A stretch of 64,000 nt of DNA from contig NZ_JABXWR010000001.1 in assembly GCF_013377755.1 (NCBI RefSeq), forward strand, positions 1,003,104-1,067,103. The letters run 5' to 3'. The stretch comes from Methanofollis tationis (lineage in GTDB: Archaea > Halobacteriota > Methanomicrobia > Methanomicrobiales > Methanofollaceae). Below, one piece after another: positions 48,009 through 51,176 of the stretch. Within the stretch, counting starts at the first letter, position 1. The number at the start of each line of letters is the position of its first letter. The position numbers and the translations under genes are program-made. Below the pieces are notes generated by a model. The model was not told the origin of the DNA and ran no database searches. It worked only from the letters and a program-made list of their open reading frames with translations.

Positions 48009-48105
48009 GCCCAGAAACTCTTTTCTTAAGCTCCCGTTTCCCGACGCCAACCTATATCTACCGGAAAGTCCTCAGTCTGGATCATCGGAAAAGGAGGGAT
48101 AAGAA

Positions 48106-49959
48106 ATGGCTGATGCACACGAAAAGGACAAAGTCATCTTTGCCGCCACGATGGCGGCGACCTTTGAGCCGGACTCGATGACCAACGACAAACTCGAGGC
48201 GGCGACGAAAGGGCACGGCTCCATGGTGATCCCGGTGTTTGCGGCGGCAAACTCCCTTGCCGGCGACATCTTCTGCCCGATCGGGGGGGATGAGATGAGC
48301 CTCATGGGACGGATGACCGTGGTGGACGCCGCCGCCCCGGACCTCCCGCTCGACATGGTGATCGAGAAGGCCGTACGGGCGGCGATGAACGCCGGGGCCG
48401 AACCGGCAAACGCCGCCCTGATCGTAGCGTCGCTCGCCTACTTCTCAGGCTCCTGCGCCAGATCGGGCGTGCCGCTCGGCAACCGCAAGCTCGGGGCGAT
48501 CGCCCGGATGCACGCCGGCGCTGCCCGGACGAGCGCCATCGCCCTGGTCACCGGGAAGTTCACCCACCGCATCCAGGCCTTCCCGGCCTATCTCGCTATC
48601 TACGAGGGGCTGATGGGGAAGAAGCTGACAAAGGTGGACGGCGCCATCCTCCCGCCCTTCATCGCAGGCGGGGCGATCTACGGCCATTCCGCACTCGGCG
48701 AGGACTACAACATCCCCGAGCTCGCCTACAACGCCGCGAAAGTAGGGACCGAGGCGATGATGCGGAGCATGGAGGGTGCGGGGATCACCCCGTACGCCCT
48801 CTGGCCGGCCCTGATCGGTGCGGCGGTGACGATGGAACTCGTGCACCCGGACGCCCTCCTCGGCGAGGAGTTCGGGAAGTTCGGGCGGGTGGACTCGGCC
48901 TATCTCGCCGGGAAAGGCGCCCGCGACGCCGCCGGCCTGCCGGAGAAGATCCATATCCGCGGCACGCACGAGGAGTACGACACCGCCAGGGTGATCGGCG
49001 ACTTCGGGCTGATCCTCAAGGACATCGGCGGCCCGTCGGTCATCGGCTCGATGGCCCTCTCCGAGATCTTCGCCGCCTTCGAGGAGGCGGCGATGATCGG
49101 GGCCGGGTTCTCCGGCGGCCCGGTGAACCCGCCCCTCGGCCACCTGGAGGGCGACTGCGTCCCGGCGATGCGGCTGCTCGTGAAGCATAACGGTGACGTC
49201 TTCGCCGTTGCCGAGGCGATCCGCGACTACAAGATGAACGCCTTCATCGACCCCGAGATGGCCCTCTGCGGCCTGAACACGATCGCCCGCAAGGCCGAGC
49301 AGGTGAGCCGCGGCAAGATCACGAAGGCCTGCATCCTCGCCTCCGAAGGGGTGCGCGACCGGGCGATCTACCGGCGGGCCGCCCACACCTACGACCTGAT
49401 GAAGGCCGGAAAGACGGTGGCCGAGGCGACGCAGACCCTTGACGCCGAGCGGCAGGCTTATGTGGAGCGCCGGGGCTCGGCGGTCCTCTCGGGCTTCACC
49501 GGAAAGCAGATCGCCTTCAAATACACCTCGATCAAGGCGCACGGCCGCCGGACCGACAAGTTCACCGCACGCTACTGGGGCTTTGACTCCAACGTCTCCT
49601 ATGACGTCTCCATCGACGGCAAGCCCTATCATGTGGAGAACCTGGGCGGGAAGGAGGTGCCGGCCTTCGCCCTGGAGGGGAAGAACCGGGACGATCCGAA
49701 CTGGGCGACGGCTCTCTTCTGCGGGGCGGTGCTGACGCAGGAGCTCCAGTACATCGGGCACACGATCATCAACATCACGGTCCCGGCGGCGGTGGCGGCC
49801 CTTGTGGGGAACGATGCAAAGGACGCCGCATTCAGTGCGGAGGACGGCGCCTTCCTGACCCGCGCCATCCCGGGCGCCGGCGAGAAGGCCTTTGAGGTGG
49901 CGAAACTGGCGCAACGGGTGTACGCGAAGATCAACGAGCCCTTCCCGCCTGCAGCATGA
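48106..49959 (+). CDS. unrecognised 617-aa protein coupled to LarC
   Basis: 617 aa, soluble, Ala/Gly-rich. Conserved-looking blocks include PIGGDEMSLMGRMTVVDAAA, SGSCARSGVPLGNRKLGAIA, THRIQAFPAYLAIYEGL, IGAGFSGGPVNPPLGHLEGD and FTARYWGFDSNVSYDVSIDG. His, Cys, Asp and Glu residues in these blocks could bind metal. The stop overlaps the LarC start by 4 bases (ATGA). I do not recognise a family; it looks like a methanogen enzyme. The coupling to a nickel-handling gene is the only functional hint. Confidence 0.75.
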   Translation: MADAHEKDKVIFAATMAATFEPDSMTNDKLEAATKGHGSMVIPVFAAANSLAGDIFCPIGGDEMSLMGRMTVVDAAAPDLPLDMVIEKAVRAAMNAGAEPANAALIVASLAYFSGSCARSGVPLGNRKLGAIARMHAGAARTSAIALVTGKFTHRIQAFPAYLAIYEGLMGKKLTKVDGAILPPFIAGGAIYGHSALGEDYNIPELAYNAAKVGTEAMMRSMEGAGITPYALWPALIGAAVTMELVHPDALLGEEFGKFGRVDSAYLAGKGARDAAGLPEKIHIRGTHEEYDTARVIGDFGLILKDIGGPSVIGSMALSEIFAAFEEAAMIGAGFSGGPVNPPLGHLEGDCVPAMRLLVKHNGDVFAVAEAIRDYKMNAFIDPEMALCGLNTIARKAEQVSRGKITKACILASEGVRDRAIYRRAAHTYDLMKAGKTVAEATQTLDAERQAYVERRGSAVLSGFTGKQIAFKYTSIKAHGRRTDKFTARYWGFDSNVSYDVSIDGKPYHVENLGGKEVPAFALEGKNRDDPNWATALFCGAVLTQELQYIGHTIINITVPAAVAALVGNDAKDAAFSAEDGAFLTRAIPGAGEKAFEVAKLAQRVYAKINEPFPPAA

Positions 49960-51176
49960 GGGCGCTGCTCATCGATCCCCGCACCGGCGGGATATCAGGC
50001 GACATGCTCGCTGCCGCCCTGGCCGACCTGACGGGATCGGCTGCGCCCCTCGAACGGCTGAGCGCAGCGATCGCCGCCCTTCCCGGGTGTGTGGAGTTCT
50101 CGGTGAGGCTGGAGGAGGCCGACGGTGGTGTCAGGGCCAGGCGGCTCTCCTTTAAGGTGCGCGAGAAGCCCGCGGGATCGGACGGGGACCTTGCCGCCGC
50201 CCTGGCTGAAGTAGCCGCTTCGGTCGGGCTTACGGCATGGGGGCGTGAGCGATCAGAGAGGATACTCAGCGACCTCCTCGCCGCCGAGCGGCGCTTCCAC
50301 CCCACGGGTTTTTCGCGGCACGCCATCGCCTCGGCCGACACGATCTTCGACATCCTCGCCCCTCTCCTCCTGATCGAGGAGGCCGGGCTTGCCGGGTGTC
50401 AGGTCCATGCCACCCCGCCGGCCCTTGGCGGCGGGCTGATCAGGACCGGCGGCGGGACGGTCGGCGGTCCGGCGCCTGCGGCCCTGGAGATCTGTGCGGC
50501 GCACCGGATCCCGGTGGCGGAAAGCCCGCTCTCGATGGAGCTGACCACGCCGACCGGCGCCGCCCTCCTCGCCAACCTCGCCGTCGTGGCCGACCGTTTC
50601 CCGGCGATGACACCGATCCGCACCGGCTACGGGGCCGGGACCCGTCCGAACGGCGCCGGCGCCAACATCCTCAGGGTCGTGGAGTGCGAGATGAGCGGGC
50701 TCGTCGAGGAGCGGATCGTCCTGCTGGAGACGAACCTCGACGACATCAGCGGCGAAGTGGTCGCCCACGCCCTCGGCCGCCTCCTCGAGGAGGGGGCGAT
50801 CGATGTCTTCGTCACCCCCGCGATCGGGAAGAAAAACCGCCCGGTCCAGGTGATCTCGGTGATCACCGACCGGGAGCGCTATGCACGCCTCCTGACCGTC
50901 CTGATGGAGGAGACCGGAACCCTCGGGGTGCGGGTGCGCGAGGAGCCCCGGCTGGTCGCCGACCGGCGGCGGGAGACCGTGGAGGTCGCCGTCGGCGGGC
51001 GCACCTTTCCGGTGCGGGTGAAGACTTCCGAGGCCTGCGGCCGGGTGATCGCCGTCAAGCCCGAGTACGAGGATATGCGGCAGATCGCCCGCGAACTCGG
51101 GGTCACCCTCCGCGAGGTTGCGCGGGAGGTGGAGCGGGGCCTCCCCTCTCCGGGAAGAGGGGGCCAGCAGGAATAA
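49956..51176 (+). CDS. larC: LarC, nickel insertion protein for pincer-type cofactors
   Basis: 406 aa in one continuous frame. The N-terminal DPRTGGISGDMLAAALADL is the LarC signature, followed by SADTIFDILAPLLLIEEAGL, MELTTPTGAALLANL, LLETNLDDISGEVVAHALG (start of the C-terminal domain) and a final VKPEYEDMRQIARELGV. LarC is a CTP-dependent enzyme that puts nickel into the pyridinium bis-thiocarboxylate cofactor. In Lactobacillus it is made as two parts by frameshift; here it is fused. No larB or larE is in the window. Confidence 0.93.
   Translation: MRALLIDPRTGGISGDMLAAALADLTGSAAPLERLSAAIAALPGCVEFSVRLEEADGGVRARRLSFKVREKPAGSDGDLAAALAEVAASVGLTAWGRERSERILSDLLAAERRFHPTGFSRHAIASADTIFDILAPLLLIEEAGLAGCQVHATPPALGGGLIRTGGGTVGGPAPAALEICAAHRIPVAESPLSMELTTPTGAALLANLAVVADRFPAMTPIRTGYGAGTRPNGAGANILRVVECEMSGLVEERIVLLETNLDDISGEVVAHALGRLLEEGAIDVFVTPAIGKKNRPVQVISVITDRERYARLLTVLMEETGTLGVRVREEPRLVADRRRETVEVAVGGRTFPVRVKTSEACGRVIAVKPEYEDMRQIARELGVTLREVAREVERGLPSPGRGGQQE

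Follow-up and report, generated by a model that had tools for sequence, protein, structure and literature searches.

Next to a larC gene in the genome of Methanofollis tationis lies a gene for a 617-residue protein, and the overlap of the two genes raises the question of whether this protein uses the nickel-pincer cofactor (NPN) and what the adjoining LarC does for it. We use the label p617 for the 617-residue protein and its family, and "the window" for the whole stretch of 64,000 nucleotides that was analyzed. According to known chemistry, NPN is made from nicotinic acid adenine dinucleotide by LarB, LarE, and canonical LarC. LarB carboxylates and hydrolyzes nicotinic acid adenine dinucleotide, and LarE inserts sulfur (PMC7583248, PMC11796402). 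Nickel insertion by LarC is CTP-dependent, and Moorella LarC cytidinylylates the phosphate of the precursor and later hydrolyzes it (PMC7583248, PMC11796402).

The overlapping genes and the lar genes of the genome

The p617 gene was located at 48106..49959 of the forward strand as an ORF with an ATG start, and direct reading of the letters revealed a Shine-Dalgarno-like GGAGGG at 48093..48098 of the same strand, 7 bases ahead of the ATG. The second gene, an ORF at 49956..51176 of the forward strand, encodes a LarC paralogue of 406 residues (PF01969, 1.3e-87). It also matched the NCBIfam models of LarC2 (NF052512; 1.2e-36, 125 bits with a cut-off of 50) and LarC1 (TIGR00299; 2.5e-29, 102 bits with a cut-off of 90), both over the cut-off. 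Alignment with LarC placed a diverged LarC1 half at approximately residues 1–242 (49956..50681, forward strand), and the NF052512 match and a residue table placed the LarC2 domain at residues 254–375 (50715..51080, forward strand). The ORFs and the letters showed that larC starts within the stop region of p617 with an ATGA overlap, GCATGAGG. A previous reading made from the letters alone (the sequence-only reading) had described a 617-residue ORF and a LarC sharing 4 bases, and both ORFs proved to be real.

The same reading had stated that no other lar genes were present, which holds at the locus but not for the genome. The M. tationis genome (99% complete) encodes LarB (C1:314949), LarE (C1:284811), and a second LarC, which is canonical (C1:995022, about 8 kb ahead of the window start) and shows 35% identity with the LarC of the window; only LarA was not found in a whole-genome search. 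The presence of LarB, LarC, and LarE without LarA in this genome supports p617 as an NPN client. LarB, LarC, and LarE were present together in all 66 genomes of a closer comparison, and some Methanomicrobiales with neither p617 nor LarA still encode all three. Thus, p617 cannot be the sole NPN user in that order, where at least one further NPN user probably exists.

The p617 family and its comparison with LarA

p617 was found in 46 of the 393 genomes of the phylum, and a single-sequence search and a profile search gave the identical 46. The carriers were Methanomicrobiales, the families f9, f22, and f14, and Methanosarcinaceae (which we infer to be family f8). By tblastn, five Rhizobium and Ciceribacter plasmids also carried p617, with approximately 41% identity over 92–96% of its length. 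This distribution covers one archaeal phylum (393 genomes) and a plasmid collection of 72,556 records; the viral and phage collections searched gave no match. Because full-length orthologues, spanning 41–99% identity, occur in both archaea and bacteria, p617 is a real gene, and the family is real and old.

An alignment of 21 archaeal and rhizobial p617 sequences had five invariant histidine residues (His37, His194, His247, His283, and His346) and five invariant lysine residues (Lys88, Lys128, Lys151, Lys305, and Lys396). Further invariant residues included Arg127, Glu199, Asp200, Arg285, Asp299, Asp306, Arg395, Arg481, Arg482, and Glu546; no cysteine was invariant. Such a pattern, with its many invariant residues, looks like that of an enzyme, and the five histidines and five lysines are candidates for catalytic histidines and for lysine-linked NPN. 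In the three members that were checked, hydropathy peaked at less than 2.0.

The sequence-only reading had failed to recognize the 617-residue protein, and so did we: searches of Pfam, NCBIfam, and PDB sequences and profile searches returned only chance matches, none of them significant. Full-length p617 was modeled by AlphaFold2, with close relatives only as input, at a pLDDT of 52, at which the Foldseek result was meaningless. The C-terminal domain (residues 389–617) was modeled at a pLDDT of 79, and comparison of this model with the PDB gave no convincing match. The best VIA match of the C-terminal model was a CLC channel with a Z of 6.9, which is within the noise for helical models.

Neither archaeal nor rhizobial p617 matched the HMMs of Lar_N and LarA_C (PF09861 and PF21113), and a profile-profile comparison with LarA by hhalign gave a probability of 0.5. 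p617 is also longer than LarA (about 600 versus about 420 residues). A GFSGGP...GH stretch of p617 (residues 334–346) resembles the GYSGGAK motif of LarA, but rhizobial p617 does not have it, and the resemblance was discarded. No sequence test therefore identifies p617 as a LarA, and our claim, made from its genomic setting, is that it probably works in a nickel-pincer system.

LarC-type partners of p617

A LarC or LarC2 protein adjoins p617 in 37 of 38 loci, either as the paralogue found in the window or as a protein consisting only of the LarC2 domain. The sole other neighbor common to several lineages was LarB (12 of the 38 loci); besides the lar genes, the 38 loci had no neighbor common across lineages that would hint at a substrate. 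The partner is the full-length LarC paralogue in Methanomicrobiales, f9, and f22, and the LarC2-only protein in Methanosarcinaceae and f14. At the majority of Methanosarcinaceae loci, the partner gene is followed by larB and a complete larC; in one genome (G384, locus L057) larB and larC lie about 70 kb from p617, and no larB lies close to p617 at two loci (L063 and L075). The 27 p617-linked LarCs formed one clade in a LarC2-domain tree, with a support of 97/96. A second clade (96/96) comprised the 18 LarC2-only partners, from archaea as well as rhizobia, and both clades stood apart from 35 other LarCs, although few columns and long branches leave the deep joins of this tree unsure. These two partner clades indicate that two different LarC-derived proteins serve p617, and the LarC2 domain is the element common to all p617 partners.

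The conservation of residues differed between the two halves of the paralogue. In a comparison of 35 canonical with 27 linked LarCs, the LarC2 half of the window protein retained all residues that are invariant in canonical LarC2, as did the other linked paralogues, except for Pro276, which varies in some members. In the LarC1 half, the canonical Glu111, Gly113, His152, and Pro156, each present in at least 97% of the 35 canonical LarCs, were replaced by Ala, Ala, Gly, and Gly, respectively, and His103 and His110 were retained. The coupled gene product thus matches the HMMs of LarC, the CTP-dependent nickel insertase, and retains its LarC2 invariants, but differs in belonging to a separate paralogue clade with a diverged LarC1; in Methanosarcinaceae and rhizobia, the partner has only the LarC2 domain and a complete LarC is additionally present. 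Methanopyrus kandleri MK0293 (PDB ID: 3c19 and 6iwj), an uncharacterized protein of solved structure, resembles in sequence the LarC2 half of the window protein (3c19, E = 5e-13); it is LarC2-like and stands alone, as do the partners of p617 in Methanosarcinaceae and rhizobia. Some archaea make separate use of the LarC halves, in more than one way: besides a full LarC, two genomes have a LarC1-only gene beside larB (G306, L133:841-2358; G329, C1:801786-803183) and a third has one beside larE (G029, C5:17469-19013).

The occurrence of p617 follows that of an extra LarC2 domain. At least two LarC2 domains were present in 42 of the 46 genomes with p617 versus 11 of the 347 without it (Fisher, 1.6e-41, with relatives that are non-independent). 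Since relatives are not independent, the comparison was also made within the 13 genera having both states (genera transcribed by hand), where at least two LarC2 domains were present in 35 of 36 genomes with p617 versus 4 of 67 without it (CMH, p of about 1e-13). LarC itself was present in all 46 p617 genomes, whereas the sequence-only reading had named a family common in genomes lacking larC as the observation that would speak against its proposal; the proposal thus withstood this check. The identities of p617 and of the partner LarC2 correlated over 27 loci (Mantel r = 0.955). The two genes also decay together: in three genomes (G208, G329, and G267) p617 is fragmentary beside LarC, the linked LarC of G329 is likewise broken, and a single deletion in G267 extends from within p617 into LarC. 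As exceptions, G203 and G316 have an intact p617 with no adjacent and no second LarC, and G003 has a remnant of the LarC paralogue with p617 absent. Gene neighbors may persist among close relatives, and p617 might on that account be a co-inherited neighbor with an unrelated function. We consider this very improbable, because archaea and bacteria both show the linkage, with two distinct LarC-derived partner lineages, the association persists within genera, and the genes decay jointly.

Rhizobial operons and the proposed role of p617

In Rhizobium sp. CCGE532, a single run of genes encodes p617, the LarC2-only protein, LarC, LarE, LarB, and a NicO nickel transporter, in this order, and HMMs confirmed each lar member and the transporter. 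The gene order in CB3090 is the same, with LarE confirmed by HMM. The annotated operons of R. tropici CIAT 899 and Rhizobium sp. CCGE531 are as in CCGE532, except that larE is in two ORFs (L135:15613-16419 and L141:7302-8108); this gene is intact in CCGE532, and the split possibly reflects a disrupted pathway. In Ciceribacter, the ORFs of p617, LarC2, and LarC were resolved, and these three follow the CCGE532 order. Among the 72,556 plasmid records, the LarC2-only protein occurred on exactly the five p617 plasmids, and LarC occurred on 97 records. In a search that covered plasmids, no LarA match was obtained on the five p617 plasmids and no p617 match on the 15 plasmids with LarA. In R. leguminosarum and Phyllobacterium, larA was found near a larC-larE-larB block. 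Related plasmids thus combine the same block of cofactor-making genes with larA in some cases and with p617 in others. LarA and p617 are alike in sharing operons with larB, larC, and larE, and differ in that p617 is accompanied by an additional LarC2-type protein. We regard this rhizobial comparison of larA with p617 as the decisive case.

The sequence-only reading had suggested that p617 may be a nickel-pincer enzyme or, alternatively, that LarC serves another nickel site. Its premise of no other lar genes did not hold at the scale of the genome, but the co-occurrence, the extra LarC2, and the rhizobial operon all favor the first suggestion, which stands as a prediction; the second is the less likely one, given that LarB and LarE accompany p617 in bacteria. 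A further alternative is that p617 is a nickel- or nucleotide-dependent enzyme for which LarC2 acts as a CTP-dependent chaperone or subunit, with NPN not involved. The LarC2 domain alone as the minimal conserved partner and the loss of several LarC1 residues from the linked LarC would agree with this, but the partners in the rhizobial operon include LarB, LarE, and a nickel transporter, and LarB is found at most Methanosarcinaceae loci, so that we judge it improbable.

The genomic evidence that links p617 to the NPN pathway is strong. It consists of the persistent linkage of p617 to LarC-type genes, its co-occurrence with an extra LarC2 domain, the joint decay of the genes, the difference between rhizobial operons in having LarA or p617, and the pattern of residues retained and lost in the dedicated LarC. 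From this evidence we predict, with a probability of about 70%, that p617 is an NPN client enzyme unrelated to LarA and served by a dedicated LarC2, cofactor binding and catalysis both being predictions. The LarC2-type protein beside p617 would finish, hold, or deliver NPN made by LarB, LarE, and canonical LarC, and p617 would be the apo-enzyme that receives the finished cofactor and carries out hydride-transfer chemistry. Judging from the cofactor, its reaction would plausibly be a racemization or epimerization of a 2-hydroxy acid or a related alcohol. A more specific version, in which p617 represents a second nickel-pincer class and LarC2 makes or retains a variant cofactor such as a cytidylylated nickel-pincer dinucleotide, is put forward only tentatively. 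Canonical LarC, by contrast, is reported to cytidinylylate the precursor only transiently (PMC11796402).

Alternatively, p617 and LarC2 might together modify or carry NPN, or its nickel-free precursor, for LarA or another protein. Nearly all p617 systems have a LarC2-type protein beyond canonical LarC, which could suggest a changed or extra step in cofactor synthesis, and LarA is also present in most p617-bearing Methanosarcinaceae. However, LarA was found neither on the rhizobial p617 plasmids nor in p617-bearing Methanomicrobiales, and p617 is the sole protein in the rhizobial lar operon to which no role has been assigned. A biosynthetic, modifying, or carrying role is therefore unlikely, although somewhat less so than an NPN-free one.

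Some organisms have been inferred to possess nickel-pincer proteins other than LarA (PMC11796402), and the larBCE genes of Haloferax suggest an NPN-using enzyme there (PMC8305020). In the literature searched, with most subscription papers outside it, we found no named NPN protein other than LarA. What is new here is probably the lar operon with a client protein unrelated to LarA. p617 provides a concrete and testable candidate for a non-LarA NPN user in archaea and bacteria, including rhizobial plasmids. If the NPN client reading is true, p617 would be a second enzyme family for a cofactor known from one, and a specialized role of LarC2 would be predicted.

Two further observations were made. 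In LarA-less Methanomicrobiales, DUF362 ferredoxin-type proteins (L096:759-1895, forward strand; L097:396-1559, L098:580-1686, and L099:440-1600, reverse strand; and C1:1821781-1822899 in the M. tationis genome, G000) have a stretch GH..AGFGGAIKN..MG....QH, which aligns gap-free to HYYAGYSGGAK...NH of LarA with coinciding His, Lys, and His positions. These proteins reached up to 24.5 bits with the Lar_N HMM in a whole-genome search, their distribution does not track larC across the whole phylum, and hhalign detected no similarity between DUF362 and p617. The DUF362 protein is a possible further nickel-pincer binder, a weak suggestion. A 399-residue aldo/keto reductase with a ferredoxin-type C-terminus was found near p617-LarC2 in two genera of Methanosarcinaceae (L056:11141-12340, L058:8778-9977, and L070:8962-10161), a weak hint of chemistry on a hydroxy/keto substrate.
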